Shown here in pieces: positions 16,090 through 53,308 of a stretch of 64,000 nucleotides of DNA; position 1 is the first letter of the stretch, and each line of letters begins with the position of its first letter. The translations under genes were made by a program, and so were the position numbers. Source of the DNA: Stenotrophobium rhamnosiphilum (GTDB lineage: Bacteria > Pseudomonadota > Gammaproteobacteria > Nevskiales > Nevskiaceae); the NCBI RefSeq assembly GCF_003052265.1, contig NZ_QANS01000004.1, positions 124,414 through 188,413 of the forward strand, read 5' to 3'. The notes under the pieces were generated by a model, which was given only the letters and a program-made list of their open reading frames with translations, made no database searches and was not told the DNA's origin.

Positions 16090-16109
16090 CGCAGCACCAA
16101 AAGATCACA

Positions 16110-16139
16110 CGGTCTCAGAAGGATCTGAGGCCGACTTTT
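16110..16139 (+). terminator. Rho-independent terminator after paralogue 1
   Basis: Ten-bp stem CGGTCTCAGA / TCTGAGGCCG (one G-T wobble), loop AGGA, then ACTTTTG. Confidence 0.75.
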
Positions 16140-16195
16140 GATTAAGCGACTGATCGCTTATCTCCTTCTGTACTGAACTATCAATGTCTCCTTTG

Positions 16196-16222
16196 AAAAG
16201 CCGCCTTCCGGGTGGCTTTTTT
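16196..16222 (+). terminator. Second terminator between the paralogues
   Basis: AAAAGCCGCC / GGTGGCTTTT stem with one wobble pair and a T run. With the hairpin at 16110 it makes a double stop before unit 2, implying unit 2 needs its own promoter or read-through. Confidence 0.75.
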
Positions 16223-16310
16223 ATATTCATCCACACATGAGTATGTCTAGGCCACTAGTTGAGCTTTCATATAGAGCGCAGCCTTCTCAGACTTTTAGAA
16301 GGAGACCCTC

Positions 16311-39785: not shown

Positions 39786-39898
39786 CCAGAACGCTACGTA
39801 ACGCTCACGTTCTGGCTGTTATGCCTTTGACGTGGACGTCGGTGTCCATTAATGGCCGGCTTCGGCCAATGCAATCACAAGTTAAAAGTTGTGATACG
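39786..39898 (-). promoter_or_regulatory. ANTAR-type leader C (degenerate copy)
   Basis: Read on the minus strand: a first hairpin ATCACAA / TTGTGAT, then P1 TGGCC-[GAAGCC]-GGCCA (39868-39853). P2 follows as GGAC-[ACCGAC]-GTCC (39847-39834), with the conserved GACGTCCACG continuation. Unlike the other three copies, no matching CGTGGAC plus T run follows. Instead there are a short CACGT / ACGTG pairing and a CCAGAACG / CGTTCTGG hairpin (39815-39786) with a modestly T-rich tail. Confidence 0.7.
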
Positions 39899-39911
39899 TA
39901 TGAAATATAGG

Positions 39912-39927
39912 AGCAATCGCTATGCCA
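39912..39927 (-). promoter_or_regulatory. Sigma-54 promoter of leader C
   Basis: Minus strand TTGGCATAGCGATTGCT, identical over 17 bases to the promoter of leader B at 47515-47531. The GG/GC spacing is correct. Confidence 0.85.
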
Positions 39928-39984
39928 AGTTTAGACGGGCATAGATAAAGTCGCGGAGGACTCTAAACAGCTAAACACCTAGAG

Positions 39985-40011
39985 AAAAAGCCGCCTAATG
40001 ATTTAGGCGGC
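39985..40011 (-). terminator. Terminator overlapping the Rrf2 stop codon
   Basis: Minus strand: GCCGCCTAA-ATCA-TTAGGCGGC followed by TTTTTC. The TAA stop codon of the Rrf2 gene is the last part of the 5' arm. Confidence 0.9.
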
Positions 40012-40437
40012 GCGCATGATGTGTTCTAGACGGACCAATGTTGGCCCACGCAAAACATCAGCGATTGTGTACTTCCGAAGTTCATCAAGAAAACTTTGTT
40101 CGGCGCGATCGAGTGCACCTTTAAGTGCACAGCCTCCGTGCAAAGGGCAGGGGCCGCGTTTGCAGTCAGCCATTGCACCAACACCTTCCATCGCTGCAAC
40201 AACATCGCCAACGCGTAGGGTATTCGCAGGAACAGCGAGCTTTAATCCGCCATATCTGCCACTGACAGAATCGACATAACCTAATTTGCGTAGGCCCTGT
40301 GCAACTTTGTGCATGTGGTGTGCGGATACGTTGTAGCGCTCAGCAATCTTTGCTGCGCTGACAGGTTTACCGTCGCGTATACCAGCGAGATAAACCAAGA
40401 GACGTAATGAAAAATCGGTGTAAAGGGAAAGGCGCAC
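40003..40437 (-). CDS. nsrR: Rrf2-family regulator, NsrR-like
   Basis: About 144 residues from a GTG with GGGA upstream; an in-frame TTG four codons earlier is less likely. The N-terminal winged helix is LSLYTDFSLRLLVYLA...ISAERY-type with SGRYGGLKLA (wing). Three Cys at 92, 97 and 103 (CKRGPC, then CPLHGGC) have exactly the C-x4-C-x5-C spacing of the [4Fe-4S] nitric-oxide sensor NsrR, followed by QSFLDELRKYTIADVL. It would repress NO-defence genes until NO damages the cluster. It lies divergent to the ANTAR gene and near an exported truncated haemoglobin. I found no convincing NsrR operator. Confidence 0.8.
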   Translation of the reverse strand: MRLSLYTDFSLRLLVYLAGIRDGKPVSAAKIAERYNVSAHHMHKVAQGLRKLGYVDSVSGRYGGLKLAVPANTLRVGDVVAAMEGVGAMADCKRGPCPLHGGCALKGALDRAEQSFLDELRKYTIADVLRGPTLVRLEHIMRAA

Positions 40438-40520
40438 TAGCGTTCCCAAATGGTCGAGTTGGGAGATTTTACCCTTAAATCACAAGTAAATTTTTGGCTT
40501 TCTGTGTAAATGGCCAAACA

Positions 40521-40536
40521 TGGCATTTCATTTGCT
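40521..40536 (+). promoter_or_regulatory. Sigma-54 promoter of the ANTAR regulator gene
   Basis: TGGCATT-TCAT-TTGCT with correct 12-bp GG/GC spacing, 34 bp before the ATG at 40570. The regulator therefore shares its promoter class with its proposed targets. Confidence 0.75.
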
Positions 40537-40569
40537 ACGTATTAGATGGTGGCAAAGGGGGGGCTGTGA

Positions 40570-41160
40570 ATGGAACTCGCACATACAAAATTTAGGGTAA
40601 TGCTGGTTGATGACCATCCAGAGCGCATGCAGATGCTGGAGCAGGCGTTGGCTATTGAGCAGCATGTCATCGTTGCAAGGCTGGATTCACGGGCGGATTT
40701 GGCTATTGAAGTGAATTTGCACAAACCCGAGATCATTTTTATTGATGTTGATGCACCGGGAAGGGCAACGCTGGAGTCTCTGGCGCAGATCAACAAGCTA
40801 CGACCACTGCCGGTTGTGCTTTGTGCTGCGCGTAGTGACTCCGAAACGGCTCGGCGTGTGGTTGATGCAGGGGTCAGTGCTTATGTCGTCAATGGTCTGC
40901 AGCCAGAGAGAGTCAGCGCTTTATTAGAGGTGGCTGTTGCACGATTTGAAATGCAACAGACCTTAAGACTTGAGTTGGACGCTGCACGAACGCGCCTTGC
41001 TGATCAGCGCGATATCGAAAAAGCGAAAGGCTTATTAATGAAGCGTCGCAATCTCGATGAGGCTGGTGCTTTTGCACTTTTAAGGCGCATGGCAATGGAT
41101 CGGCAACAAAAAATCGGAGATTACGCGCGCGCTCTTTTGAGTGCGGCAGATGTTCTGTAA
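40570..41160 (+). CDS. nasT: NasT-like response regulator with ANTAR RNA-binding domain
   Basis: 196 residues. Receiver-like domain (1-120): acidic pair Asp14-Asp15, possible phosphoacceptor Asp59 (DVDAP). The switch Thr is replaced by Ala (LCAARS) and the conserved Lys by Asn (AYVVNGL), as in the pseudo-receiver NasT. A coiled linker is followed by the ANTAR domain (about 137-195: DIEKAKGLLMKRRNLDEAGAFALLRRMAMDRQQKIGDYA). ANTAR proteins bind twin-hexaloop hairpins in leader RNA and stop terminator formation. NasT is usually held by the nitrate sensor NasS, which is not adjacent here. An ANTAR-type leader begins about 130 bp downstream. Confidence 0.92.
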   Translation: MELAHTKFRVMLVDDHPERMQMLEQALAIEQHVIVARLDSRADLAIEVNLHKPEIIFIDVDAPGRATLESLAQINKLRPLPVVLCAARSDSETARRVVDAGVSAYVVNGLQPERVSALLEVAVARFEMQQTLRLELDAARTRLADQRDIEKAKGLLMKRRNLDEAGAFALLRRMAMDRQQKIGDYARALLSAADVL

Positions 41161-41265
41161 CGCAATTTGTAGATGTTGATTACGCACGATTAGAGACGCA
41201 CTGAACCAATGCGTTTCACGTTATGCCTAGGAAAGATTGAGTAATTTTCAAAGTAAATTCTATCT

Positions 41266-41281
41266 TGGCATGGCGATTGCT
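41266..41281 (+). promoter_or_regulatory. Sigma-54 promoter of leader A
   Basis: TGGCATG-GCGA-TTGCT, followed by TAATTAAAC as in the leader D promoter. Predicted start near 41292. An ACGCA-N9-TGCGT dyad at about 41191-41209, roughly 90 bp upstream, could be an enhancer-binding site or the end hairpin of the ANTAR gene. Confidence 0.88.
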
Positions 41282-41322
41282 TAATTAAACTCGTGAACCT
41301 CTACTGGGGTCATATGCAGCAA

Positions 41323-41411
41323 AAAAGAATTGGCCAATGACGCCTAATTCTTTTCGGACATCGACGTCCACGTTTCTGGCACAGCAGCCAGGCACGTGGA
41401 CGTTTTTTTTT
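41323..41411 (+). promoter_or_regulatory. ANTAR-type antitermination leader A
   Basis: P1 (41323-41354): AAAAGAATT...AATTCTTTT arms with inner hexaloop AATGAC (A1, G4). A one-base linker follows, then P2 (41356-41369): GGAC-[ATCGAC]-GTCC (A1, G4). The terminator stem ACGTCCACGT (41364-41373) shares the 3' strand of P2. Binding of both loops by the ANTAR protein would block the terminator and allow expression of the DUF3034-to-apbE operon. Confidence 0.85.
41364..41411 (+). terminator. Leader A intrinsic terminator
   Basis: Ten-bp stem ACGTCCACGT / ACGTGGACGT enclosing CTGGC-[ACAGCA]-GCCAG, then nine T (41403-41411). Mutually exclusive with hairpin P2. Confidence 0.92.
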
Positions 41412-41459
41412 GCTTTGCAGTTACGCAGTTCGAAACTGGCTATTAAAAGGAGTTAGGTA

Positions 41460-42452
41460 ATGAAAGGATTAATTGGGGTTAACCGGTATTTGCCTTCGTG
41501 TGCGGCGTTGCTCGCGTTATCGGCTGCACTATTCAGTGCTGGTGCATGGGCAGATTTGTACAACGATGGAAAAGTGCTAGCCACAGGCGGCGTTAGCATG
41601 ACGGACGGCGCTGGCGGTGGCGGTATTACGCCGTGGGCAACGATCACAGGTTACGGCACGCGCGATGGTATCAACGGCGACGTGCACTACACCTACGTGA
41701 ACCTGCCGAACTACGCGTTGAACTCTATCGGTGGTGCGGTCGGACTGTGGGATCGTGTTGAGTTGTCATATACCAATGACGTTCTCACCACGGGTAGCAC
41801 CTTTAACACGGTTGGTCTTCTCACTGACACGCTCGGACTTCCTACCGGCATTGCGCCTTGGAACACGACGATCAAGATGGATGTCTTCGGTGCAAAGGTT
41901 CGCGTGTTTGGCGAAGCAATTTACGATTCCGACAACTTGATCCCTCAGGTCGCGGTCGGTGGTTTCTACAAAATAAACCACAACCGAGCACTGCTGAAGA
42001 CGCTACAGGCTAGCAAGTCGAAAGATTGGGAAGCCTACATCGCAGCGACGAAGATCTTCTTCCCGATCAACACGCTGGTTAACGTCACTCTGCGTTACAC
42101 CGCAGCAAATGAAACTGGCCTCACAGGTTTCGGCGGCCCCAAGGGTAACAAGCGCGAAATCCGTCCAGAAGTTTCGCTGGCTTATCTCCTGAACAAAGGC
42201 ACTGCTATCGGTGTTGAGTATCAGAAGCATGGCGGCAACCTTGAAGGCCAGAGCGTTGATCTGAACGGCGTCGTTGTTCCTGGTGATTTGCTCGGCTCGC
42301 TGACGCAACACGAAAGTGACTGGTACGACGCATTCATTGCTTTCTTCCCGAGCAAGAACCTGTCGATCACCATGGCTTACGCAATGCTGGGCAACATCAC
42401 GCTAACGCCTAACCAGAGCGGCTACTACATCTCGTTGCAGGCTAGCTTCTAA
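41460..42452 (+). CDS. DUF3034-family outer-membrane protein
   Basis: 330 residues: signal peptide about 1-31 (FSAGAWA), then a barrel-like protein beginning KVLATGGVSMTDGAGGGG. It continues with alternating hydrophobic strands (ATITGYGTRDGINGDVHYTYV, YTAANETGLTGFGG, GVEYQKHGG) and ends in an aromatic SLQASF, typical of beta-barrel assembly. This matches DUF3034. Function unknown. It is the first gene after leader A, with an AGGAG site, and starts the operon with haemoglobin, FMN-binding, PepSY and ApbE genes, so a channel or anchor for that redox system is a reasonable inference. Confidence 0.85.
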   Translation: MKGLIGVNRYLPSCAALLALSAALFSAGAWADLYNDGKVLATGGVSMTDGAGGGGITPWATITGYGTRDGINGDVHYTYVNLPNYALNSIGGAVGLWDRVELSYTNDVLTTGSTFNTVGLLTDTLGLPTGIAPWNTTIKMDVFGAKVRVFGEAIYDSDNLIPQVAVGGFYKINHNRALLKTLQASKSKDWEAYIAATKIFFPINTLVNVTLRYTAANETGLTGFGGPKGNKREIRPEVSLAYLLNKGTAIGVEYQKHGGNLEGQSVDLNGVVVPGDLLGSLTQHESDWYDAFIAFFPSKNLSITMAYAMLGNITLTPNQSGYYISLQASF

Positions 42453-42465
42453 GAAGGAGATTCTC

Positions 42466-42948
42466 ATGAAATCTTTAAAAGTCATTACTCAGATCGCTGC
42501 ATCAGCAATGCTCTTGTTCGCTGCGGCTCAACCGGCACTTGCAGCTCAGGATCCTACGGGCAGCAAGCAAACCACGTATCCAGGAATTTCTTCCGATGCA
42601 CTGGAAAAGTTCGGCGGAGAAGCGGGCGTTCATAACTGGGTTGAAGCACTGTTCTACTACATCATGCTCGACAACCGCATCAACAAGATCTTTATCGAGC
42701 ACGGAAATGTGGCACGACAGATTGCGTTGAACACGCAGTTGGAACAGATGGTTCTTGGTGGTGCGGTTCAGTATGAAGGCGCAAGCATGAGCGCCGCTCA
42801 CGCGGACCTCGGCATCACGCTGACCCAGTTCAACGCGGTTGTTGAAGCTGCATACAACGCGTGCGAACGCGTCAACACACCGTACTCAGTTTGCAACCAA
42901 CTCATTGCCGCACTGGCGCCGTTCGAGCGGTCAATCGTTACCCGCTAA
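42466..42948 (+). CDS. Exported group I truncated haemoglobin-like protein
   Basis: 160 residues with a signal peptide (about 1-27, PALAA). The globin part reads FGGEAGVHNWVEALFYYIMLDNRINKIF (A-C helices with the Tyr pair), then MVLGGAVQYEGASMSAAHADLGIT, giving the proximal His112, and FNAVVEAAYNACE. Truncated haemoglobins bind O2 or NO and often detoxify NO; most are cytoplasmic, so periplasmic export is unusual. Two extra Cys (NACERVN, VCNQL) could form a disulphide. Only 13 bp separate it from the DUF3034 gene. Its haem role fits the nearby NsrR-like regulator. Confidence 0.85.
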   Translation: MKSLKVITQIAASAMLLFAAAQPALAAQDPTGSKQTTYPGISSDALEKFGGEAGVHNWVEALFYYIMLDNRINKIFIEHGNVARQIALNTQLEQMVLGGAVQYEGASMSAAHADLGITLTQFNAVVEAAYNACERVNTPYSVCNQLIAALAPFERSIVTR

Positions 42949-42986
42949 ATCTGCGCTGCCATTAAAACACCATAAGGATTTAAGCC

Positions 42987-43535
42987 ATGGCAAATCAGCA
43001 TTCCCTATTCCCCCATCGGAGCAAGTCCGATGGGGTTTCTTTTGACTCAAGGAGAGCGTTCATTCGCTCCACCTTCGCAGTCTTGGCATCGACTTTATTG
43101 GCGCCGATGGCACGTGCAGGTGAAAGTTTATGGACGACGTATCAGACGCCCGCAGCGTTTGTTGCTGAAGCGTTTCGTGGAAGCCCACCACCTCCAAAAG
43201 TGATCAGCGGTCCAACAGGTCCGGTGCACTACTGGCGTGCAAATGGACGCACTGCTTGGGTTATTGAAGACCTAGGCAAACAAGGCTATCAATTAACGAC
43301 AGCCGGATTCATCGTGAAAAATGGTGCAATTGAATCTGCCAAGGTTCTCGTATATCGCGAATCTCGCGGCGAACAAGTTGCAGAACCATCTTTCCTTAAA
43401 AAATTCTTAGGTGCTCGCCTTGCAGGCGGGAAACTTGATCGCAATATCGACAATATTTCTGGCGCGACACTTTCAGTGCAAATGATGCAACGCATGGCGA
43501 GCACCGTTTTGGCGCTGGATGCTCGTGCCGGATGA
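42987..43535 (+). CDS. Exported FMN-binding (flavinylated) domain protein
   Basis: 182 residues. A twin-arginine-type signal SRRAFIRSTFAVLAS precedes cleavage near residue 45. The FMN-binding domain covers about 75-178 and carries the flavinylation motif NISGATLS, with Thr161 the likely covalent FMN site. ApbE attaches FMN to this motif through a phosphodiester bond, and the matching apbE is two genes downstream. It should act as a periplasmic one- or two-electron carrier. Stop and next start overlap as ATGA with the PepSY gene. Confidence 0.87.
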   Translation: MANQHSLFPHRSKSDGVSFDSRRAFIRSTFAVLASTLLAPMARAGESLWTTYQTPAAFVAEAFRGSPPPPKVISGPTGPVHYWRANGRTAWVIEDLGKQGYQLTTAGFIVKNGAIESAKVLVYRESRGEQVAEPSFLKKFLGARLAGGKLDRNIDNISGATLSVQMMQRMASTVLALDARAG

Positions 43536-44419
43536 CGGACATGCCGGAACACAGTGTTAAGCACAAAAGTTCTTTTAGAAGTGTGACGACAAGGTGGCGT
43601 ACGCGATGGACTATGCCGGCGAAAGAATCTCGTCCGGCGCAGCCCAAACGAACGCTGACTGCAACGCTACGTGAATGGCATAAACGAGCTGGGCTTGGTG
43701 CATTCTTGTTCATGGGCTGGCTCGGTATTAGCGGCGTCATGCTCAATCAGAGTGCAAGCTGGGGACTCGATGCAGCACGCGTTGATTGGACCTGGCTGAT
43801 GGCGGTGTATGGACTGCATGCACAGTCGCCCGAAACTGGATTTATCGCAGGTGGACATTGGTTGGCAGTGTCTGGCGAGCATTCCGTACTTGATGGAAAG
43901 CTTTTGTCGATGCCAGTTAAATCGCCTACAGGCATTGTGGTGATTGGCGAGAGTGCAAATCAAAAGTTGGTTGTAGCAACTTATGACAGTGTGTTGTTGC
44001 TGAATCCAGACGGCACGCGCATTGATGAGCTGCAAGCCGGACTGATGCTGCCTGTTAGTGCAATTCAACGCATTGGTACCGCAGAGAAAAACTCTGCGAT
44101 GGTTGTGATCGAAGACAAAGGCTTATACGGTTCTATCGACGGTGAGAGTTGGACCAAGTTGCCATCGAAAACAACGGTGAATTGGGCTCAGCCTGCAACA
44201 TTAACAATGACACAGCGTCAGCAATTCGAAGAGTATGCACGCCCATCTGTGGCTGTGGAGCAATTGCTGATTGATATGCATAGCGGCCGTTTGTTCGGAC
44301 GTTTCGGTCCATACGTTATTGACTTGGTTGGTTTGGGTGCACTTTGGCTCTCGATAAGTGGAGTCTGGATGATGTGGCGCACCAATCAAGCACGTAAACG
44401 TAATGTCGTAAGACGTTGA
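43532..44419 (+). CDS. PepSY-type membrane protein
   Basis: 295 residues with two membrane helices: WHKRAGLGAFLFMGWLGISGVML (about 49-71) and VIDLVGLGALWLSISGVWMMW (about 260-282), enclosing a periplasmic domain. RLLIDMHSGRLFGRFGPYVIDLVG-like sequence before helix two is typical of PepSY_TM proteins. The N-terminal 45 residues are basic. Such proteins are partners of flavinylated periplasmic carriers and may move electrons across the membrane. It overlaps both neighbours by four bases (ATGA upstream, TTGA downstream), so all three are translationally coupled. Confidence 0.8.
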   Translation: MTDMPEHSVKHKSSFRSVTTRWRTRWTMPAKESRPAQPKRTLTATLREWHKRAGLGAFLFMGWLGISGVMLNQSASWGLDAARVDWTWLMAVYGLHAQSPETGFIAGGHWLAVSGEHSVLDGKLLSMPVKSPTGIVVIGESANQKLVVATYDSVLLLNPDGTRIDELQAGLMLPVSAIQRIGTAEKNSAMVVIEDKGLYGSIDGESWTKLPSKTTVNWAQPATLTMTQRQQFEEYARPSVAVEQLLIDMHSGRLFGRFGPYVIDLVGLGALWLSISGVWMMWRTNQARKRNVVRR

Positions 44420-45429
44420 GTGCCGACCCTTTGAAACTGCTACGAGGAAGCAACGCTCGGTTAATTGATCAGCGCTTCCTCGCGATGGGGACTGAGATCA
44501 GTGTGAAGTTGGTCTGTGGACATCGATCTCAACGTAACGACGCCTTGCTGGCGATACAGAACGTTACTGAATTGATGCATGCCTTTAGTCGAGAGGCTTG
44601 GGCATGGGGCGATGGGGCGCTCTCGAAATTTAATTCAGCACTCAGTGCAGGTGGAACACCCAAGGTTCCCTACGGTCTGCGCGAGCTATTTACCAAGGCT
44701 TGGAAGATTCATCAGCAATCAGGTGGATTGTTTGAGCCTCGAGTTGCGAAGTTAGTGCGGCTATGGGGTTTTGATGACGTTGCGAGATTGCGCGACAGTC
44801 CGCCAACGTCTTCTGAAATTGAAACCTTGCTGCGCGCTATGAGTGCAGCGCCCAACTTTACTGGTGCAATGTATTACGGTCCGGCGCCGAATGTCTCTTG
44901 GGACTTTGGCGGAATTGGCAAAGGGTACATCGTCGATAAAGCATTAGATATTTTGCGCAAGCATCAGTTTGGAGATGCTGTAGTCGATGCCGGTGGAAAT
45001 CTCGCTGCGCGTGGTGCACATCACTCGCGACCATGGCGCGTCGCGATTCGAGATCCACGTTCGTCGCAGGATCCGAGACGATTACTTGCCTCGCTAGAAG
45101 TTTTTAACGAAGCGGTGATCACTCATGGAGATGATCAGCGCTACTTCGAATTTGAAGGCCGCCGCTATTCGCACATCTTGCATCCGAAGACGGGAGTCCC
45201 TGTGCAGGGATTCCGTTCGCTCACGGTGGTGCATTCCGATGCAACCCTCGCGGATGCAGGTGGAGCTGCTTTGTTTGTGGCGGGCCCGGATTCATGGCGG
45301 GCACTCGCCAAGAAGCTCGATATCGATCAAATCCTGATTGCTAAAGACAATGGCGTTATTCAAGCAACATCTGCATTGGCGCGACGCTTGTCTGTAGAGC
45401 CTGATGTTCGAATTGAAGTAATCGATTAA
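44416..45429 (+). CDS. apbE: FAD:protein FMN transferase ApbE
   Basis: 337 residues. ApbE motifs: FLAMGTEISVKL, WDFGGIGKGYIVDKALDIL (active-site and FAD-binding Asp/Gly region), VVDAGGNLAARG, ITHGDDQRYFEFEGRRYSHILHPKTG and VVHSDATLADAGGAALFV. It transfers FMN from FAD to Thr/Ser of SGAT-type motifs, here most likely Thr161 of the product two genes upstream. The TTG start overlaps the PepSY stop (TTGA). No obvious signal peptide or lipobox is present, so its compartment is unclear. Last gene of the leader A operon, closed by the 45452 terminator. Confidence 0.92.
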   Translation: MSADPLKLLRGSNARLIDQRFLAMGTEISVKLVCGHRSQRNDALLAIQNVTELMHAFSREAWAWGDGALSKFNSALSAGGTPKVPYGLRELFTKAWKIHQQSGGLFEPRVAKLVRLWGFDDVARLRDSPPTSSEIETLLRAMSAAPNFTGAMYYGPAPNVSWDFGGIGKGYIVDKALDILRKHQFGDAVVDAGGNLAARGAHHSRPWRVAIRDPRSSQDPRRLLASLEVFNEAVITHGDDQRYFEFEGRRYSHILHPKTGVPVQGFRSLTVVHSDATLADAGGAALFVAGPDSWRALAKKLDIDQILIAKDNGVIQATSALARRLSVEPDVRIEVID

Positions 45430-45451
45430 GGCCAAAAAAATTCTCGGGCAT

Positions 45452-45483
45452 AAAAAACCCGCAGCTTTCACTGCGGGCTTTTT
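45452..45483. terminator. Bidirectional terminator between operons A and B
   Basis: AAAAAACCCGCAG-CTTTCA-CTGCGGGCTTTTT: 7-bp GC-rich stem with A and T runs on either side, serving apbE and the convergent OmpA-cupredoxin gene. Confidence 0.92.
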
Positions 45484-45506
45484 GCTACTGCAACACATAG
45501 ACAAAC

Positions 45507-46598
45507 TTACTTCACAACGATGGTACCTTTCATCGATGCATGGATGCCGCACTGATAAACATATTCGCCAGGCTTGGCAAACGTGCGGCTAAAGCTTTCA
45601 CCAAAAGCAATCGTCTGATCCTTGTCAGGAAACTTTACGGTGTGTCGGGTCTGATCCTTGTTGGTCCAGGTGACGGTTGTGCCGGCAGCGACAACTAACT
45701 TGTCAGGAACAAAGCTGAAGTTTGAAATCGAGACTGTGTTGCCGGTGGAGGTAATAACGGTCGTGGACGGAGCAGCTGCACTAGCTTTGGGCATCGGCAT
45801 GGTGTGTGCTGCTTCTTCGGGCGCTGCATAAGCAGCGCTGCCAGCAGGAGCCTTCCATGATGGACCGGGCTTCGGCGCTTCTGGTGCGACTGATGGCTGA
45901 TTTTTGTAGGTAGGCGTAGGGCCCGCTTCTACAGGGTTGGGCACATGAGTGAGAACGCCGATAGAAGTTGGGATGCCTGCACCTGGTTCGCTCGCATGTG
46001 CGGCCAGCGGTTCAAGAATCACGACGGCGTTATTTTTTGAAGCCACAGAAATTACCGGCGATGCCGACTCTAAAACCTTGAGCTCAACGCGACGATTCTT
46101 TTCACGTCCCTCGTCGGTTTCGTTATCGGCAATCGGCATGGTCTTGCCAAAGCCTTTCGAAGTCAGACGATCTTGAGTAACGCCTTGTGCGACCAAATAA
46201 CTTGCAACGCTCTTTGCGCGACTATCCGATAGTTTCTGGTTGTATGCGTCGGTGCCCTTGCCATCGGTGTGCCCATCAATTTCAACTTTGATATCGGTGC
46301 GTGCGAGCAGTGCGCTGGCAACTTGATCAAGCAGCGACTTGGCGTTGATCGTGAGTGTGGCTTTGTTAAATTCGAAGTTCACACCATGTAGAACAATGGT
46401 GTCGCCGCTCTTGCAGCCTTCAAGAGAGACCGGCTTTCCTGATTCTGGCATCTGACAAGTTACAGCGACGGAGTCAGCTGGAAGCTTGGGGATTGGATAG
46501 GAAGAGTAATCGAGACCGTTTGATGCGAGTACGCCACAGCCTGAGAGATGAACCGCTACAACCGCACTACAGAGTGCTACTAATTTCTTATTTTTCAT
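45507..46598 (-). CDS. OmpA-cupredoxin fusion lipoprotein
   Basis: 363 residues with an unusual architecture. Lipobox HLSGC (Cys21). OmpA-like peptidoglycan-binding domain (about 70-175: VNFEFNKATLT, IDGHTDGKGTDAYNQKLSDSRA, GREKNRRVEL). A roughly 100-residue Pro/Ala-rich linker follows, then a plastocyanin-like domain (about 280-363) with all type I copper ligands: His319, Cys350, His353, Met356 (YQCGIHASMKG). It should be anchored to the outer membrane, bind the wall and carry electrons by copper. It is the second gene of the leader B operon, after an intercistronic hairpin. Confidence 0.9.
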   Translation of the reverse strand: MKNKKLVALCSAVVAVHLSGCGVLASNGLDYSSYPIPKLPADSVAVTCQMPESGKPVSLEGCKSGDTIVLHGVNFEFNKATLTINAKSLLDQVASALLARTDIKVEIDGHTDGKGTDAYNQKLSDSRAKSVASYLVAQGVTQDRLTSKGFGKTMPIADNETDEGREKNRRVELKVLESASPVISVASKNNAVVILEPLAAHASEPGAGIPTSIGVLTHVPNPVEAGPTPTYKNQPSVAPEAPKPGPSWKAPAGSAAYAAPEEAAHTMPMPKASAAAPSTTVITSTGNTVSISNFSFVPDKLVVAAGTTVTWTNKDQTRHTVKFPDKDQTIAFGESFSRTFAKPGEYVYQCGIHASMKGTIVVK

Positions 46599-46653
46599 GT
46601 TGAAAAAACTCCTTGAGTAAGCTGATGCCGTTTACTGCCCCCAAATTAAAAGA

Positions 46654-46677
46654 ACCCCGGGATATAACTCCCGGGGT
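46654..46677 (-). terminator. Intercistronic hairpin (attenuator) in operon B
   Basis: Nine-bp stem ACCCCGGGA / TCCCGGGGT with a 6-base loop, then TCTTTTAATTT on the minus strand. It lies between the Gly/Leu-rich gene and the OmpA-cupredoxin gene, which has no promoter of its own that I can see, so partial read-through probably sets a lower level of the second product. Confidence 0.75.
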
Positions 46678-46691
46678 AATGCCGTGCGGCT

Positions 46692-47357
46692 TTAAAGCCC
46701 GCTGACAACAGGGAGTACGATTGAAACGATAGGGCCGACGAGCTGGAGAATTTCTCCAGTCGGCAAGCCGCCACTTCCGAGCAAGCCGAGGCTGCTCACG
46801 AGTGGTAGTGCAGTTGTTGCGAGCGGGCCGACGAGCGTCAGGAGATCCCCAGTCGGTAATCCACCTTTACCGAGAAGGCCCAAGCTGCTGACGATTGGCA
46901 GTCCACCTGATGCCAATGGCCCAACGAGTTGCAGAAGTTGTCCTGTTGGTAGACCGCCGCCGCCGCCCAGACCCACTAAGCCCAACTCGCCGAGGCCAAG
47001 ATCACCCAGATTGAGACTGCCGCCCAGTACTTGCGTGACGTCTTTCACTACAGGCGTGAGGCCTTTGAGCACTGGCGTAACAACGCCAAGTAGTTGTCCT
47101 GTAGGCAAGCCGCCTTTGCCGCCTAGCAAACCCAAGTCGAGCGAGCCAAGACCGAGTGAGCCAAGGCCAGGCAAGCCGCCGCCAACAAGCGGAAGATTGC
47201 CGAGTCCGAGTGAACCGACTACGGGCAGCGATGACAGATTGAGCGTCCCAATAATGGGCAAGCTGCCGATGATGGGCAGTGTAGGGGCGGCAGCTGAAGC
47301 GTTGAGTGACGCGCTGGCGATGAGCACAGCAGTTGCGAGTTGAATGAACTTGTTCAT
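46692..47357 (-). CDS. Exported Gly/Leu-rich repeat protein
   Basis: 221 residues: a signal peptide (about 1-23, NASAA), then a low-complexity sequence of Gly, Leu, Pro, Val and Ser. Four copies of a unit of about 30 residues begin GGLPTG[QDE][LI]L, with bodies like LVGPLATTALPLVSSLGLLG. The N-terminal part repeats LPIIGSLPIIG and LGSLGLGSLDLGLLG. There are no charged residues in long stretches and no Cys in the mature part. It is not collagen-like (no G-X-Y period) and I know no family. Probably a fibrous or surface structural protein. First gene after leader B. Confidence 0.75.
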   Translation of the reverse strand: MNKFIQLATAVLIASASLNASAAAPTLPIIGSLPIIGTLNLSSLPVVGSLGLGNLPLVGGGLPGLGSLGLGSLDLGLLGGKGGLPTGQLLGVVTPVLKGLTPVVKDVTQVLGGSLNLGDLGLGELGLVGLGGGGGLPTGQLLQLVGPLASGGLPIVSSLGLLGKGGLPTGDLLTLVGPLATTALPLVSSLGLLGSGGLPTGEILQLVGPIVSIVLPVVSGL

Positions 47358-47389
47358 GAATCTAAATCTCCCTTCCTTGCTCGTAGGCC

Positions 47390-47436
47390 AAAAAAAACGT
47401 CCACGTGGCAGGCTGCTTTGCCTGCGACGTGGACGT
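47390..47436 (-). terminator. Leader B intrinsic terminator
   Basis: ACGTCCACGT / ACGTGGACGT stem enclosing GCAGGC-[AAAGCA]-GCCTGC, then eight T on the minus strand. The outer stem is identical to that of leader A. Confidence 0.92.
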
Positions 47437-47470
47437 CTATGTCCGAAGAATCGGTCGTCGTCGACCCATT
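47390..47470 (-). promoter_or_regulatory. ANTAR-type antitermination leader B
   Basis: Minus strand: P1 GGTC-[GACGAC]-GACC (47466-47453) within GAAT...ATTC outer arms, linker TTC, then P2 GGAC-[ATAGAC]-GTCC (47444-47431; A1, G4). P2 runs into the terminator stem. The 24-base P1 frame has the same geometry as leader A. Confidence 0.85.
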
Positions 47471-47514
47471 CAAATATGTATACGTAAGCTGATGTGCTTT
47501 CGCAGTATTAACGT

Positions 47515-47530
47515 AGCAATCGCTATGCCA
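47515..47530 (-). promoter_or_regulatory. Sigma-54 promoter of leader B
   Basis: Minus strand TTGGCATAGCGATTGCT (last T of TT at 47531), identical to leader C's promoter. Predicted start about 50 bp before hairpin P1. Confidence 0.88.
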
Positions 47531-47590
47531 AATTAATGCGCCCGAGCATTTTGCTTACAAATCTCAAGGCAATAAAAAATAATGTTCGAG

Positions 47591-47899
47591 CTACGGCGTG
47601 AACTGCGAATGGCTGCGGCGATAACTGCTGAGATTGTCGCGGTATTCGGTCTGGCGCTGCAGGCTGTTGCTATTGATCGGTGACGTTGGTGCGCGATAGA
47701 GCGATGGGGCTTGATCCAGGCCCGTAGCAAATTCCTCTTTCCACGGCATCAGCGTGACGCCCATCGCCGAGTTTTGCTCAACAACGATCGTGCTGCCCAG
47801 AGCTTGTGGCGCTGGAGCATTGCTTGATTTAGGCGGTGCGGAGAAAACGCTTTGTGTCAGCAAGAGAGCAAAGATCATTAGCCAGCGATATTGCTTCAT
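47591..47899 (-). CDS. Small exported hypothetical protein
   Basis: 102 residues with a signal peptide (about 1-20, QSVFSA). The mature part is polar, Ser/Pro/Gln-rich, without Cys, and includes STIVVEQNSAMGVTLMPWKEEF. Not recognised. Its ATG overlaps the TGA of the TPR lipoprotein gene by four bases, so it is the last, translationally coupled member of the leader D operon. Confidence 0.7.
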   Translation of the reverse strand: MKQYRWLMIFALLLTQSVFSAPPKSSNAPAPQALGSTIVVEQNSAMGVTLMPWKEEFATGLDQAPSLYRAPTSPINSNSLQRQTEYRDNLSSYRRSHSQFTP

Positions 47900-48558
47900 G
47901 GCGCTGCTCCGCTAGCGACCGTCGTGCCCGCGGTCATTTCAAGTTGCTTGATCCACGCAGTCACAATCAGATTCTCTTTGCCGGACAGCCGCAGATATTC
48001 ACGGTATTGCGAGAGTGCTTCTTGTGGACGCCTCATTGAGACTTCGTAAAGAATTCCAAGATTCATATGTGCAGCGGCGTAATCAAACTTTGTAGCAAGT
48101 GCTTGCTGATACGCCTGTTCAGCGCGTGGGTAGTCGCCACTTTCGCGATAAAGCGTGCCCAGCCAATTCCAAGCGACTGCGTTGCGTGGATTGGTGCTGA
48201 CTGCTTTGGTGAGCCCAGCGATGGCTTGGGGCCGCTGACGAGACTGCGCGTAGAGAATCGCAAGGTCAGTCATCGGACCCGAGAACTCTGGATAGTCACG
48301 CGCCAGTGAAGTGAATGCCGCAATAGCTTCCGGCGTTTGGCGATCTTTCATCAGCTTGAGCGCAGCGTTGAATCGCTGTTCAGGATCACCTTTGCTGTTC
48401 GCGCTTGCATTGCCTGCAGGTACGGAATTTTGTGTTGAACCGCGTGCGGATTTTGCAGGCGGGCTGTAAGGCTTCGTCGCCAAGCCAGTGCAGCCGGTTA
48501 CGAATAGGCACAGGCCGACAACCGATTGCTGCATAAATGCTTTAACGGAGTGAGTCAT
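47896..48558 (-). CDS. TPR lipoprotein
   Basis: About 220 residues from the ATG at 48558; an upstream in-frame ATG at 48588 has no ribosome site and would weaken the signal peptide. Lipobox LFVTGC (Cys about 23), then a Ser/Pro-rich linker and four to five TPR units (AIAAFTSLARDYPE, AWNWLGTLYRESGDYPRAEQAY, AAHMNLGILYEVSMRRPQEALSQY). Probably outer-membrane anchored, serving as a scaffold. It overlaps the end of the 949-residue TPR gene by 17 bp and is coupled to the small exported gene downstream. Confidence 0.85.
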   Translation of the reverse strand: MTHSVKAFMQQSVVGLCLFVTGCTGLATKPYSPPAKSARGSTQNSVPAGNASANSKGDPEQRFNAALKLMKDRQTPEAIAAFTSLARDYPEFSGPMTDLAILYAQSRQRPQAIAGLTKAVSTNPRNAVAWNWLGTLYRESGDYPRAEQAYQQALATKFDYAAAHMNLGILYEVSMRRPQEALSQYREYLRLSGKENLIVTAWIKQLEMTAGTTVASGAAP

Positions 48559-51391
48559 AGCTGTTCTCACGTTGTTCGCGCTTGCCATATTTGGCGGGTG
48601 AAAGATCGGCGAGTGCAGCGACGCTCTTCTTGATTGAATCGTTCCAAAGCCCTTGGCGCAGTCGTTGAAGATTGGCTTCGTGTATCGAGATGGCTTTCTC
48701 CTCGAAAGGATTGGCCTGTTCTTCTAACAGAATGTTGTATTGCTCCAGCGCATCGCCTTGGAGCTGTGCAGGGCGAGGGGAATCCAGCAAGGCACGACCG
48801 AAATCGCGATAGACCATCCCGATTTCATAGGTTGCGGCTGTCGTGACGTTTGCATATCCGTAGCTCGCTGCACGCTCGAAACTCGCAATCGCGACCTCAG
48901 TGGCACTCTTACGCTTAGGCAAGCTTTTATTAACCGGCATGCTCAAGGCCAGTGCACGTGCTTTTGCGGCAGCGATCTGACCGATTTCAAGATTGGCCTG
49001 TGCTGCCATTTGCTTCGATACATCAGTGCGCGCTGCTGCGGAGGTATCCGCGTCAATCAGTTCACGCAGCCAGCGTTGATAGAGCGCATCGTCGCGGCTG
49101 TTGGTGTGTGCGAGATCGGCAAGACGGCGACGTGCTGTCATTGCACGATCCAGCGGCTGCGGGAAGTTGCTGACGTAATACTCATAGGCGCGAGCAGTTG
49201 GCGCTGTGGCGTTTGCCTTGTCGCTTAACTGTGCAGCGAGCCATGCGGCGTCACGACGGGTGTCTGCGGACTCGGTGCTGCGTGCGGCAATGCGTGCATA
49301 GGCTTCAGATGCTTGCAGTGGCCGGTTGTCTTTTTGATAGGCAAACGCCAGCTTCTTGTCAGCATCCGCAGCTAAAGCGTTCTTTGGATAACGCGACAGG
49401 AAAGTTTCGAGCGTGGATTCGGCGTTCTTCCAGTCTTGCAAGTTGATGAATGCGGCGGCTGCGTCATAGTCGGAGTTGGCTTGGATGCTGGTTCCGGGCG
49501 CTATACGAGCAACACGCTGAAAGTGATTGGCGGCAGCGCGCAGATCGCCTGCTTCACGAGCGGCTTCGCCTTGTTTGTAAATTGAGGCTGCAAGCTGTTC
49601 GTTGGCTACAGAGCGTTTTGCATCCGTGGTTTCGAGCAGTGGCAGCAGTGCTGTATATGCTATTTCAGCTTGTGGATATTGCTGTTGCGCGAAATAGGCA
49701 TCAGCCAGAACGCCCTGTGTTTCTCGACGCAATTCTGTCGCCATCGACTTCTGCATCGCGCGTTGCGCAACGACGATAACCTGCGGATAGTCTTTGATTG
49801 CGTAAAGATCATTAGCAGCGCGCGCCAATACCGCTGAGAGCTTCGGATGCTGTGGGAATGTATCGGCGAGTTTCAGGCTGGCCGCAATGGACTGAAGCAG
49901 CGCAGGGGTTTGTGCAGTTTCTGGTACTTCACGCGCCAAACGTTGCCATGCCTGAACGCCTGCATAAGCCGCTTCTGCTGCTTTGGGATTGCCAGTATTT
50001 GTATAGGCGGTGACGGCATATTGCTGAGCTGCGGCTTCAGTTTGGCCGCCGTCATACAAAGCATCGGCGTAGAGCATGCTCGTTGCCGCAACCTGAGGAG
50101 CATCAGGGAATGCTTCAATTGTTTTTTTGTACCAGCTGGCGGCCTTTGAGAAATCAGCTTGACGCGAAGCCGTTTCGGTTAAAGGCGTTTTCTGTGCTCT
50201 GGCGTGGTAGTAACTGCCAAGGTCGCTGAGGTCCTGTCTCACTTCTGCAAGAACTTTCGCAGGAGGTGCAGTTTTCCCCCAGTAGGCGGAGCCTGGCGCA
50301 TAAAGATTGACGTAAGTTTCCTTCGCGGAAATTGTCAGCTCATTAAAGCCACCTTTGCGATAAGCAGCGATAACTTGAGTTTGGAAGTCTGGTGCCAAGG
50401 TGTGTTTCGGATAACGCGCTATGAATGAGGCGTAGGTTTCAGCGGCGTCTGTATAGCGCTGGCGATCCATCAACATGCTGCCGAGATCGCTGTAGAGCAG
50501 GGCGTAGTAACGCGGATCGCGGCCGGATTTGGCAAAGTAATCGTTGATTGCTTTGCCCCCACCAAGTGCTGCGAAAGACAGGCTGGTGACGCGTAGTGTT
50601 TCTGCGACGTACGGGCTGCCTTTTACTGTTGGCGCAGCTTGGAGGCTAGTGGAATCGGTCAACTCTCCTGCAGGAAGATCGCGATCCAATATCGGGATAA
50701 AAATAGCCAGAGCCTGCTCGTATTTGCTCTGCTTGTAGAGCGTCCAGCCATATTTGTATTCGCCGGTGCGATAGAGCGGGTTTTCTTTTCCGAGGTTGAA
50801 CACGGCTCTGTATAAAGGTTCGGCCTGATCGTACTTGCCGCTAGCGAAGAGCAATTCCGCAGAGCGAAAAGCGGCGTCACCAATACGCAAGGAATCTGGA
50901 TAGCTTGCGACCAATGTCTTCAGGGAGTTGATTGCAGATTCGTTATCGCCAGCCAACTGATAAGCGCGCGCGAGCTGGTACAGCACCCGATCATTGTGTT
51001 GGTAAGTCGGAATCTCGCTCAGCAATCTCTTGTAGTTGAAGATTGCTTTGCGCAGCTCTGCTTCATTGAAGTCGCCGGAGGCATCGATCATCTGCACACG
51101 TAAATCAGCCGATCGGCGCAAGGCTTCAGCGAGAATCACGGGATCTGGATTCAGCTCAATAAGGCGGTCATATTGGATGAGCGCTTCACGTGGGTTTGGG
51201 GGCAATGGTTTCGACGTCGTAACGCGCAGAATCGTCGGCGTCGCGATTTGAAGTACGCCGTTGCTGTTCAATCCGTTGTTGTGAGTGATGCTTCCAACTG
51301 TTGAAGGCTTGTTATCGGCCGCGCTGCTGACGACGCACTGCAGGGCGAGGATTGCTGCTGCTGAATACTTTAGTAGGCCGGCTTGTTTCAT
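48542..51391 (-). CDS. Large exported TPR protein
   Basis: 949 residues: signal peptide (about 1-24, VVSSA), then many TPR/Sel1-like helical repeats over nearly the whole length (for example QLARAYQLAGDNESAINSLKTLVASYPDS, YGWTLYKQSKYEQALAIF, YADALYDGGQTEAAAQQY, AYFAQQQYPQAEIAY). There is no enzymatic motif. Such proteins are periplasmic scaffolds, like TPR components beside TonB/ExbB-like motors or gliding machinery; that comparison is by resemblance. Its ATG overlaps the upstream stop as ATGA. Confidence 0.87.
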   Translation of the reverse strand: MKQAGLLKYSAAAILALQCVVSSAADNKPSTVGSITHNNGLNSNGVLQIATPTILRVTTSKPLPPNPREALIQYDRLIELNPDPVILAEALRRSADLRVQMIDASGDFNEAELRKAIFNYKRLLSEIPTYQHNDRVLYQLARAYQLAGDNESAINSLKTLVASYPDSLRIGDAAFRSAELLFASGKYDQAEPLYRAVFNLGKENPLYRTGEYKYGWTLYKQSKYEQALAIFIPILDRDLPAGELTDSTSLQAAPTVKGSPYVAETLRVTSLSFAALGGGKAINDYFAKSGRDPRYYALLYSDLGSMLMDRQRYTDAAETYASFIARYPKHTLAPDFQTQVIAAYRKGGFNELTISAKETYVNLYAPGSAYWGKTAPPAKVLAEVRQDLSDLGSYYHARAQKTPLTETASRQADFSKAASWYKKTIEAFPDAPQVAATSMLYADALYDGGQTEAAAQQYAVTAYTNTGNPKAAEAAYAGVQAWQRLAREVPETAQTPALLQSIAASLKLADTFPQHPKLSAVLARAANDLYAIKDYPQVIVVAQRAMQKSMATELRRETQGVLADAYFAQQQYPQAEIAYTALLPLLETTDAKRSVANEQLAASIYKQGEAAREAGDLRAAANHFQRVARIAPGTSIQANSDYDAAAAFINLQDWKNAESTLETFLSRYPKNALAADADKKLAFAYQKDNRPLQASEAYARIAARSTESADTRRDAAWLAAQLSDKANATAPTARAYEYYVSNFPQPLDRAMTARRRLADLAHTNSRDDALYQRWLRELIDADTSAAARTDVSKQMAAQANLEIGQIAAAKARALALSMPVNKSLPKRKSATEVAIASFERAASYGYANVTTAATYEIGMVYRDFGRALLDSPRPAQLQGDALEQYNILLEEQANPFEEKAISIHEANLQRLRQGLWNDSIKKSVAALADLSPAKYGKREQRENSYDSLR

Positions 51392-53130
51392 TGTGCTGAC
51401 GCCAGTTCAGGGCGATCGTAGATGGTCGCCAGTGCGAAGCGGGCTTCGATCAAATATTTATCGAGCTGTTTCTTTTGTGCAGTCAGATTGGTAACGGCAA
51501 TGCTTTCAAGTTGCGTGCGTTGTCCAGCAATCGCAGCAGAAAGGCGACTGTGCAGCTCATCGTTGGAATTCTTGATGGCACCGTCAGCCAGCATCAGGTT
51601 TCGATAGGCCTGCAATGCTTCGGCAAAATCGTTGCTGAGTAACAGACGCTCAAAGTAAAAAGTGTCAGTAACGTTTTTCGGTGTCTCAGGCGTATCACCC
51701 TGCCACCAACGAGCGCGCGCTGGTGGTAGAGAGGCGTTTACTTGGGCCCATCCACTGTCATTGACAGCGTCTCTGGCATTGATCGCCGCGATCATGCCGC
51801 CACTGCGGATGCTCGCAATGGCGTTGTCATACCATCCACGAACCTTGTCGAATTGGTCTGCTGCACGGTTGTAGTCGACTTGTGCCTGCGCATATGCACC
51901 AAAGTGATACAGCGTCCATGCGATCGCGAGCATGCCTTCTTGCACTGTCGGATCGGTTGGATCGCGGCCAATGAGTTCTGTCCAAGGTACTAGTGCTTTG
52001 CGTAGAGCAGTTTGCTGAAACTTGCTGGCAGAAGGCACGCGCGGTGCTTGTTCTCTCTGAAGCGCGACGATGTCCGCGGTGAGACGCGGAGTCACAATCG
52101 TCGGATATCTTGCAGTGGTGATTGGGCTGGCAACACCTTCGCGATTGACTGGAAGAAGTAATGCCCAGCCCAAGCCAAGCAGACCGCCATTGGAATACGG
52201 CCCTGGGCTACGAATGCGTTCGAATACCGGAATGGCTTTGTCGCCCTGACTTTGATTCAGAAAGTAGTAAGCCAACACTAAATTCGCTTGATCACGCAGC
52301 GTTAGCGCAGATGATTCTGTGACTTCTGAGAGCCCAATAGCATCTAGCTCTGTCGTCGCTTCAAATCCTTTGCCCTGTTGAATCAGCAACAACGCTTGGT
52401 TGAAGCGAATCGTCAGTGGATCACTACCGATTTGTGTAGATTCAATGGCCTGCAATCCCAAGGCTGCGCGGCATACGCTGAGTCGTTTATTAATTGCTTC
52501 GACAAGCGTGGCGTCCTGGTTGTTTGCCATTAAACGCATCAGGACTGATGCTGCTGAAAAATACTCGCCGTCAGTCATCATGAAATCGACTGCACTTAAT
52601 TGGTTCCCTAAGGTGCCAGCCGTTGATTCGCGAATTGAAACATCAAACGACGCATCGTTGATGAGGGTCGCCTTGCTCAGCGTCAGTACCAGCGTGACGC
52701 CAGATGAACCACTGCTAAAGCTCTTTGTTAGCTGGCCCTGTTTGAATACTTTGATGCCTTTATCCGAGGCAGTGGCCGTATGAAAATCAGCACGCAGTTG
52801 ATTAACGCCTTCTTTGATTCCGCTAAGCGTTACTTGATATTGAGCGTTGCGTTGTAGTGCGCGTGATTCTGAGTCACTGAACTCGTAGCGAACCGGCGCG
52901 CTGTCATTAAGGCGCAGCGTGATGTCGCGTATGAAAGGAGCCTCAGCTGTGCTGCCGATATAGGCCTGTGCACGAGTGATATCAGTGCTCGTGTTCGTGC
53001 GAACAGCAGCAGCGTCTACAGTGAGCGCTTCGTTGATTAAGACGGCTGAGCTACTCGTTTGTTGCGCCTGCACGCCAGATGCAGCCATGAACATCAGGCT
53101 CGCCAATATCCATCTTCGCTGCATTCTCAT
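51388..53130 (-). CDS. Exported protein with TPR-like repeats, first gene of operon D
   Basis: About 580 residues from the ATG at 53130 (GGAGG 11 bp upstream). The frame stays open to 53190, but that part lies within the leader terminator and cannot be the start. Signal peptide MRMQRRWILASLMFMAASGVQA. The N-terminal half (about 25-180) looks beta-rich (ITLRLNDSAPVRYEFSDSES). The C-terminal half has helical repeats (FNQALLLIQQGKGFEATTELD, LAYYFLNQSQGDKAIPVFERI, LYHFGAYAQAQVDYNRA). Unknown family. Expression is controlled by the sigma-54 promoter and leader D. Confidence 0.82.
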   Translation of the reverse strand: MRMQRRWILASLMFMAASGVQAQQTSSSAVLINEALTVDAAAVRTNTSTDITRAQAYIGSTAEAPFIRDITLRLNDSAPVRYEFSDSESRALQRNAQYQVTLSGIKEGVNQLRADFHTATASDKGIKVFKQGQLTKSFSSGSSGVTLVLTLSKATLINDASFDVSIRESTAGTLGNQLSAVDFMMTDGEYFSAASVLMRLMANNQDATLVEAINKRLSVCRAALGLQAIESTQIGSDPLTIRFNQALLLIQQGKGFEATTELDAIGLSEVTESSALTLRDQANLVLAYYFLNQSQGDKAIPVFERIRSPGPYSNGGLLGLGWALLLPVNREGVASPITTARYPTIVTPRLTADIVALQREQAPRVPSASKFQQTALRKALVPWTELIGRDPTDPTVQEGMLAIAWTLYHFGAYAQAQVDYNRAADQFDKVRGWYDNAIASIRSGGMIAAINARDAVNDSGWAQVNASLPPARARWWQGDTPETPKNVTDTFYFERLLLSNDFAEALQAYRNLMLADGAIKNSNDELHSRLSAAIAGQRTQLESIAVTNLTAQKKQLDKYLIEARFALATIYDRPELASAQ

Positions 53131-53176
53131 ATGTCTCAGCGCCTCCGTTGACGAGTCAAACGGTTTTCCTTGAGCC

Positions 53177-53218
53177 AAAAAAAAGTCCACGCCATCGGGT
53201 GGATTCGATGGCGTGGAC
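53177..53218 (-). terminator. Leader D intrinsic terminator
   Basis: Perfect 13-bp stem GTCCACGCCATCG / CGATGGCGTGGAC, loop of 8, then eight T on the minus strand. Its 5' arm starts with the GTCC of hairpin P2. Confidence 0.95.
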
Positions 53219-53276
53219 GTCGTTGTCCGTATGTTCTGATCTTCGTCGATCAGGTGGAGTGCTCTTTAAAGGAGCA
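53177..53276 (-). promoter_or_regulatory. ANTAR-type antitermination leader D
   Basis: Minus strand: an upstream hairpin TGCTC / GAGCA (53276-53260), P1 CTGATC-[GACGAA]-GATCAG (53253-53236), linker of 7, P2 GGAC-[AACGAC]-GTCC (53228-53215; A1, G4), then the terminator. Same order and orientation as leaders A and B. Confidence 0.85.
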
Positions 53277-53292: not shown

Positions 53293-53308
53293 AGCAAACG
53301 CCATGCCA
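53293..53308 (-). promoter_or_regulatory. Sigma-54 promoter of leader D
   Basis: Minus strand TGGCATG-GCGT-TTGCT followed by TAATTAAAC, as in leader A. Confidence 0.88.

Follow-up and report, generated by a model that had tools for sequence, protein, structure and literature searches.

Leader Cluster Around an ANTAR Gene

A 64,000-nucleotide stretch of the Stenotrophobium rhamnosiphilum genome (contig NZ_QANS01000004.1; the whole stretch is hereafter the window) encodes a NasT-like protein with a response-regulator receiver and an ANTAR domain, surrounded by four short leader segments, A to D (Table 1). An ANTAR leader is defined by a dual hairpin (PMC3369931), its members here called P1 and P2. 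Leader A, on the plus strand, follows the ANTAR gene and precedes an operon for a DUF3034 protein, an exported-type globin and flavin-related proteins; B and D, on the minus strand, precede OmpA-cupredoxin and TPR genes, and C lies beside an Rrf2-family regulator gene. Each leader, like the ANTAR gene itself, stands behind a sigma-54 promoter box. The arrangement is very probably a sigma-54-gated, NasT-type ANTAR antitermination regulon of envelope redox genes. Sequence and comparison between genomes establish the leaders, their structure and conservation, the boxes and the co-occurrence of leaders with ANTAR genes.

Table 1. Features of the leader cluster, numbered from the first letter of the window (aa, amino acids).
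Feature	Position	Strand	Basis
Sigma-54 -24/-12 box of leader A	41266..41281	+	consensus search, 0 mismatches
Leader A P1, loop AATGAC	41328..41349	+	folding, R1 match
Leader A P2, GGAC[ATCGAC]GTCC	41356-41369	+	genome pattern search, R1 match
Leader A intrinsic terminator, nine T, GTCC common with P2	41363..41411	+	sequence, folding
Sigma-54 box of leader B	47515..47530	-	consensus search
Leader B P1, loop GACGAC (G1)	47449..47470	-	R1 match
Leader B P2, GGAC[ATAGAC]GTCC	47431-47444	-	genome pattern search, R1 match
Leader B terminator, eight T	47390..47438	-	sequence, folding
Sigma-54 box of leader C	39912..39927	-	consensus search
Leader C P1 (loop GAAGCC) and P2	39828..39871	-	sequence, R1 match, folding
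Leader C P2, GGAC[ACCGAC]GTCC	39834-39847	-	genome pattern search, R1 match
Sigma-54 box of leader D	53293..53308	-	consensus search
Leader D P1, loop GACGAA (G1)	53234..53255	-	R1 match
Leader D P2, GGAC[AACGAC]GTCC	53215-53228	-	genome pattern search, R1 match
Leader D terminator, eight T	53177..53221	-	sequence, folding
Sigma-54 box TGGCATTTCATTTGCT of the ANTAR gene	40521..40536	+	sequence
NasT-like protein with response-regulator and ANTAR domains, 196 aa, presumed antiterminator for leaders A to D	40570..41160	+	Pfam
Operon behind leader A	41460..45429	+	Pfam; order kept in several relatives (among the matches listed)
DUF3034 protein, operon A	41460-42452	+	Pfam
Globin with signal-like N terminus, operon A	42466-42948	+	Pfam
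FMN_bind protein, operon A	42987-43535	+	Pfam
PepSY_TM protein, operon A	43532-44419	+	Pfam
ApbE, operon A	44416-45429	+	Pfam
Genes behind leader B	45507..47357	-	Pfam
Low-complexity GLPTG-repeat protein, no Pfam match, behind B	46692-47357	-	
OmpA-cupredoxin protein, behind B	45507-46598	-	Pfam
Operon behind leader D	47591..53190	-	Pfam
First protein behind D, 600 aa as listed, no Pfam match	51388-53190	-	
TPR protein, 949 aa, operon D	48542-51391	-	
TPR protein, 230 aa, operon D	47896-48588	-	
102-aa protein, operon D	47591-47899	-	
Protein of 153 aa, no Pfam match, ~390 bases behind leader C P2	38975..39436	-	
Rrf2-family regulator, best NCBIfam match NsrR but below cut-off	40003..40449	-	

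Structure of the Leaders

The initial annotation proposed that the four leaders share the core GGAC-[AnnGAC]-GTCC-ACG, and direct reading and a genome-wide pattern search agree: P2 is followed by ACG in all four, and its six-base loop has A at position 1 (A1) and G at position 4 (G4) in every case. A search of the 3.96 Mb genome for the 17-base pattern GGACANNGACGTCCACG gives four matches without mismatch, every one inside the window. When up to two mismatches are allowed the genome has 13 matches, fewer than the 26 of the reversed control; the mismatched ones are thus background and the exact four alone stand out.

Ahead of each P2 lies the second hexaloop hairpin that had been described there, since all four leaders align end to end, as tandem hairpins with six-base loops, to a covariance model (R1) built from relatives. 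Loop 1 carries G4 in all four leaders and A1 in leader A alone, as first read; the P1 stem of leader A has one C.C mismatch. In A, B and D, but not in C, the GTCC arm of P2 doubles as the 5' arm of an intrinsic terminator, and the runs of eight or nine T first noted there are found (nine, eight, and eight). The terminators of A, B and D are strong (leader z-scores of -7.0, -6.8, and -8.7), whereas leader C reaches -2.4, with 5 of 200 shuffles as good. Forcing P2 to form costs 9.3 kcal/mol in A, 8.4 in B, 5.5 in D and 2.4 in C.

An Rfam scan of the window returned no family at gathering score. Four sub-threshold matches near leader A, up to an expectation value (E) of 10 (SR6_antitoxin, 31.4 of 55 bits, E 8.5e-4; ncr1015; narK; Glutamine-II), were set aside as chance, none being an ANTAR family. 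A simple recent duplication of all leaders was also rejected: only A and B share 88% over 58 bases, and the other pairs have just shorter matches around P1/P2 and the terminator.

Sigma-54 Boxes

The boxes, which the initial annotation had missed, start 80-90 bases ahead of P2 in each leader. The consensus TGGCAYRGCGWTTGCT is matched exactly at only four genome positions, one ahead of each leader; allowing two mismatches yields 53 places, compared with 13 for the reversed control. The boxes have the -24/-12 form TGGCAY-N5-TTGC, and RpoN is present in the genome, where two genes contain a sigma-54 DNA-binding domain (G000:C2:23454-23924 and G000:C20:210220-210687). The box of the ANTAR gene lies 34-49 bases ahead of the gene start, and a like box precedes the gene in ten homologue loci (L083, L084, L088, L092-L097, L109). 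Such a promoter is not itself new, because for ANTAR-domain genes (COG3707) a count of 66 sigma-54 promoters is predicted in PMC12316311. A count of dyads in 64 upstream stretches, made for enhancer sites, gave mostly GC-rich repeats.

Leaders in Related Genomes

A strict pattern joining the sigma-54 box to P2 occurs in 18 of 146 genomes (own included), all within the family of the window (n = 58) and in none of the 88 genomes outside it; the reversed pattern occurs in none. DUF3034 is found within ~1.5 kb in 15 of 17 loci of relatives. Among the matches listed, the recurring leaders precede DUF3034-globin-FMN_bind-PepSY-ApbE operons, TPR operons and OmpA-cupredoxin genes, and the carriers include metagenome-assembled genomes labelled Nevskia sp., Nevskiales, and Lysobacteraceae.

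A set of 66 distinct segments with sigma-54 box and terminator, four of them from the window's own genome, was assembled with no loop rule, some loci having entered via the P2 pattern. Choosing by stem only, P2 is present in 63 of the 66, with A1 in 53 and G4 in 56 of these, while the best-stem P1 has A1 in 43 and G4 in 48 of 63; the stem choice took another hairpin in a few rows, and these counts are therefore rough. GRRY-N6-GTCY is found in 63 of 66 segments, and its 3' arm folds into the terminator in 63/63, the segments having been pre-selected for a terminator. Filters (linker 11-15, GGA arm, unique P1, not own genome) reduced the 66 to 29 rows; L055 (no A1/G4 P1) was left out and L056 re-registered by hand, giving 28, and the removal of L088, L092, and L094, all with a G1 P1 and misaligned by MAFFT, left 25, so that R1 under-represents G1 loops.

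In these 25 leaders 93% of all cells are paired, slid registers all being far lower. The P1/P2 covariation score is 0.466 against 0.166 when shuffled (0 of 500 shuffles as high), and changes on both sides are seen at seven of the eight P1 pairs; in 8 of 25 leaders the P1 pair adjoining the closing one is not formed. Covariation in relatives had been named beforehand as a check on both hairpins: P1 covaries, but P2, with three of its four pairs fixed, is too invariant to provide any evidence of this kind.

A covariance-model search had been proposed; R1, which contains no window sequence, ranks A to D first to fourth in the window (A, E 7.4e-8; B, 1.2e-6; D, 5.1e-5; C, 5.6e-5; fifth match, 0.079); these E-values are rough, and matches within the family are partly by construction where genomes supplied rows. 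Over the whole genome, under stricter filters, only A to D appear at E<=1. R1 finds a match at E<=1 in 50 of the 58 family genomes; at E<=0.001 it finds one in 39 of the 58 and in 0 of 27 genomes of the order's other families. Of the 48 family genomes that have an ANTAR homologue (E<1e-20), 38 also have a leader (E<1e-3), as against 1 of the 10 without such a homologue (Fisher p 7e-5, from hand-made counts not corrected for genome relatedness). The exception is an 84%-complete genome (G056). A genome of the same genus as the window (G001) has neither a close ANTAR homologue nor an R1 leader.

What kind of ANTAR leader is this? In a sample of 274 class genomes R1 has only three matches at E<=0.001 besides the own genome, each preceding an NrtA-type gene and two directly after a nasT-like gene, which assigns the set to the NasT kind. 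The three NrtA-type proteins are 68%, 68%, and 41% identical to the NrtA of this genome; the third is 47% identical to a NasS-like query, yet has a twin-arginine translocation (Tat)-like start.

The boxes could alternatively be plain sigma-54 promoters followed by constitutive or other-type attenuators unrelated to ANTAR. In one Spongiibacter and two Zhongshania loci (L067, L068, L070), indeed, the DUF3034-globin-FMN-PepSY operon has a sigma-54 box and no dual-hairpin leader, and R1 has no match in these three 17 kb loci. The conservation of P1 and P2 with their A1/G4 loops, the covariation in P1, the co-occurrence with ANTAR genes and the cross-detection of nasT-linked leaders nevertheless render this explanation highly improbable for A to D. 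That these three genomes lack ANTAR genes wholly was considered and rejected, each having a lower-scoring one elsewhere (37.0-42.8 bits). If the regulon proposed here is real, they offer a natural comparison for its antitermination layer.

The genome has a second NasT-like ANTAR gene (G000:C17 ~290.2-293.6 kb; L001, L077, L079), and one of three one-mismatch matches to the sigma-54 consensus lies just behind it, ahead of another dual-hairpin leader: GCCC[AAAGAC]GGGC, GGC[AAAGGC]GCC and a terminator, followed by genes for a porin-like protein, NrtA and an ATP-binding cassette permease. This is an ordinary-looking nitrate-assimilation arrangement with no separate NasS-like gene. As this second gene has its own sigma-54 box and a leader before nrtA, A to D might answer to its product (C17:290 kb), or to both proteins, as a far arm of the nitrate regulon. 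That is improbable: R1 does not find the nitrate leader at E<=1, A to D surround the other ANTAR gene, the two ANTAR proteins are just 38% identical, and the window-type gene stays beside the regulon in several relatives (among the matches listed).

The ANTAR Protein and NasS-Like Sensors

The ANTAR gene had been placed ahead of leader A, and it ends ~170 bp before P1 of that leader. Its product matches Pfam ANTAR (60.8 bits) and Response_reg (52.3 bits). The closest solved structures are a putative antiterminator (1s8n), which we take to be PdtaR, and a response regulator (6wsh/6ww6), presumably EutV. Parts of a structural study give Lys149, Glu160, Arg168, and Met172 of EutV as RNA contacts, the first two touching G4 (PMC8934654). 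The equivalents of all four, matched by eye from an alignment of structure homologues, are kept in the window protein and invariant across 12 aligned homologues. The receiver is degenerate: its lysine in 1s8n is Asn here and Gly in one nasT-like homologue next to nrtA.

In 18 of 30 homologue loci (own locus counted) the gene immediately downstream of the ANTAR gene is NasS-like, and the one such protein tested matches PF13379 with 285 bits. In the genome of the window PF13379 matches only an unrelated binding protein and the NrtA of the nitrate operon, whose N terminus is Tat-like; NrtA is also the only NasS-like match at E<=1e-20 (38% identity). Trp47, His149, and Lys222 (L084 numbering), presumably ligand positions, are common to NasS-like and NrtA proteins. 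Among parsed loci, the receiver motifs RDTLE and VVDG are intact in all 14 that have a NasS-like gene next door and altered in 7 of the 11 that have none there, including the window (RATLE, VVNG); the motifs were chosen after the alignment was seen, and four of the seven altered loci belong to one genus. For two of the intact loci with no adjacent sensor, a NasS-like gene lies at another place on the contig. The change in the motifs would fit the loss of a sensor contact, although it is no proof of it. ANTAR proteins of this kind are accompanied in many relatives by a NasS-like protein of the nitrate/nitrite-sensor type, so that a nitrogen oxyanion may still be the signal even though the targets are not nitrate genes.

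Leader C follows the Rrf2 gene, a position occupied in four relatives by the leader of the TPR operon: among the matches listed, G055, G057, G054, and G041 have a leader beside an Rrf2 gene, in the same direction, that precedes the TPR operon. In the window that operon sits 13 kb away, behind leader D, and a 66-aa reading frame (from 39753) separates leader C from the gene for the 153-aa protein. With this position, the TPR operon elsewhere and no terminator, C is probably a decayed copy, a relic left by rearrangement. It is conceivable that the whole system is decaying: a NasS-like gene would have been lost, C would be one relic, the ANTAR protein would be constitutive or idle, and sigma-54 alone would set expression. 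The frequency of the NasS-like neighbour among homologues and its absence here, the altered receiver motifs and the terminator-less C all lean this way; the strong terminators and P2 hairpins kept in A, B and D, together with several conserved RNA-contact residues, speak against it, and general decay seems rather unlikely.

Target Genes

Pfam places none of the genes behind A, B and D in nitrate or nitrite use, and the initial description of the targets as envelope and redox genes holds. Its remark that it had not seen such targets described needs qualifying, as ANTAR targets in mycobacteria include lipid and redox processes according to part of PMC8164766, and non-nitrogen targets are thus not wholly unprecedented. 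The DUF3034 protein is predicted to form a beta-barrel (mean predicted local distance difference test score, pLDDT, 65), and Foldseek relates the model to FapF, OmpG, and other porins (query-normalised template modelling score 0.31-0.48). Together, DUF3034, globin, FMN-binding protein, PepSY, ApbE, and OmpA-cupredoxin point to an envelope redox function. Behind leader D, an ATG at 53130 suits the leader better than the listed start of the 600-aa protein. In several relatives (among the matches listed) the TPR operon is followed by ExbB-ExbD-ExbD-TonB. Low-complexity proteins with signal-like starts lie near DUF3034 genes (window 46692-47357; L068:6594-7103), and the DUF3034 model resembles the amyloid exporter FapF; these proteins are possibly a secreted fibre. 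Elsewhere in the window (15382-17018), two tandem 235-aa proteins have similar starts (15382-16089, 16311-17018).

Proposed Mechanism

How would such a circuit operate? Sigma-54 RNA polymerase with an enhancer-binding protein would start transcription at each leader. By default the nascent RNA would fold the terminator, its 5' arm including GTCC, and transcription would stop at the T run. The active NasT-like protein would bind both hexaloops, P1 and P2, keeping GTCC within the P2 hairpin, and polymerase could then enter the DUF3034-globin-FMN-PepSY-ApbE, OmpA-cupredoxin, and TPR operons. Given that the ANTAR gene itself lies behind a sigma-54 box, the circuit would be a feed-forward AND gate. 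We infer binding, antitermination, and this logic from the features above; that the leaders are of the ANTAR type and served by the neighbouring NasT-like protein, as originally suggested, finds support in structure, P1 covariation, terminator overlap, co-occurrence, and nrtA cross-detection.

Several observations weigh against this regulon. P1 of B, C and D has G1 in place of A1, and folding in isolation turns the P1 loops of B and C into tetraloops; in EutV leaders, changing A1 to U in either loop lowered induction, as stated in part of PMC3369931. Four g8 leaders of relatives also have a G1 P1 loop, GACGAG (L088, L092, L094, L095), and two DUF3034 leaders of genus g6 have a P2 loop, ACCAAC, without G4. 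Selecting the P1 register on its stem favours pairing, and seven two-sided pairs were also reached by 25 of 500 shuffles. No R1 match at E<1e-3 is found in 10 of the 48 ANTAR-bearing family genomes. Among EutV contacts, Lys143, Asn173, Arg175, and Arg177 are replaced here by Asp, Asp, Gln, and Lys, and Tyr164 by Phe. Searches with PF13379 and NasS-like proteins found no NasS-like partner in the genome, and sequence and folding give leader C no U-run terminator.

A more specific version of the sigma-54-gated regulon can be put forward tentatively. A NasT-class antiterminator that has lost NasS may have been captured, behind a sigma-54 feed-forward gate, for a trans-envelope redox/energy-coupling module, responding to a non-nitrate signal and tolerating G1 in loop 1. 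The module might consist of the DUF3034 barrel, the exported globin, a flavoprotein, PepSY, OmpA-cupredoxin, and TPR proteins, with ExbB-ExbD-TonB in relatives.

Outside actinobacteria, ANTAR antitermination serves mostly nitrogen control (part of PMC3369931), and no ANTAR/NasT regulon of this envelope kind is among the matches listed in the open-licence literature, where DUF3034 is named once in each of two papers. If correct, an ANTAR regulon that is conserved, spans several operons and serves envelope redox genes would widen that rule, and DUF3034 and its neighbours would gain a regulatory context. The family would also provide a natural experiment, as ANTAR proteins of one kind have a NasS companion in many relatives but none in the window genome, and the receiver motif is altered in several of the lineages with no neighbouring sensor.

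Comparison With Known Systems

The regulation of Klebsiella nasF by NasR also acts through an antitermination leader of the nitrate class, and the nasF leader has a sigma-54-dependent promoter. It differs in the NIT sensor domain that NasR itself carries, according to part of PMC3795266, and in serving a single operon. The EutV regulon of Enterococcus faecalis has the same P1-linker-P2-terminator architecture (parts of PMC3369931, PMC8934654), and the equivalents of its G4-contacting Lys149 and Glu160, plus Arg168 and Met172, are kept here. EutV, however, is activated by phosphorylation, whereas in the window protein the residue corresponding to the receiver Lys of 1s8n is Asn, and the sigma-54 boxes further set the window apart. 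PepSY-like flavinylation clusters combine PepSY_TM with ApbE, as in operon A, but the partners named in passages of PMC8238504 are DUF2271 and DUF4198, not DUF3034, globin, or an ANTAR leader.

The closest likeness is to NasS-NasT of Paracoccus, Azotobacter, and Bradyrhizobium, with a receiver (REC)-ANTAR protein and a dual hairpin whose P2 overlaps the terminator; R1 cross-detects three leaders before nrtA-type genes, two of them beside nasT-like genes, and a NasS-like protein accompanies the ANTAR protein in many relatives. Differently from those systems, the window has envelope and redox operons as targets, no NasS-like partner and G1 in three P1 loops, and its four leaders lie within one 13 kb cluster.

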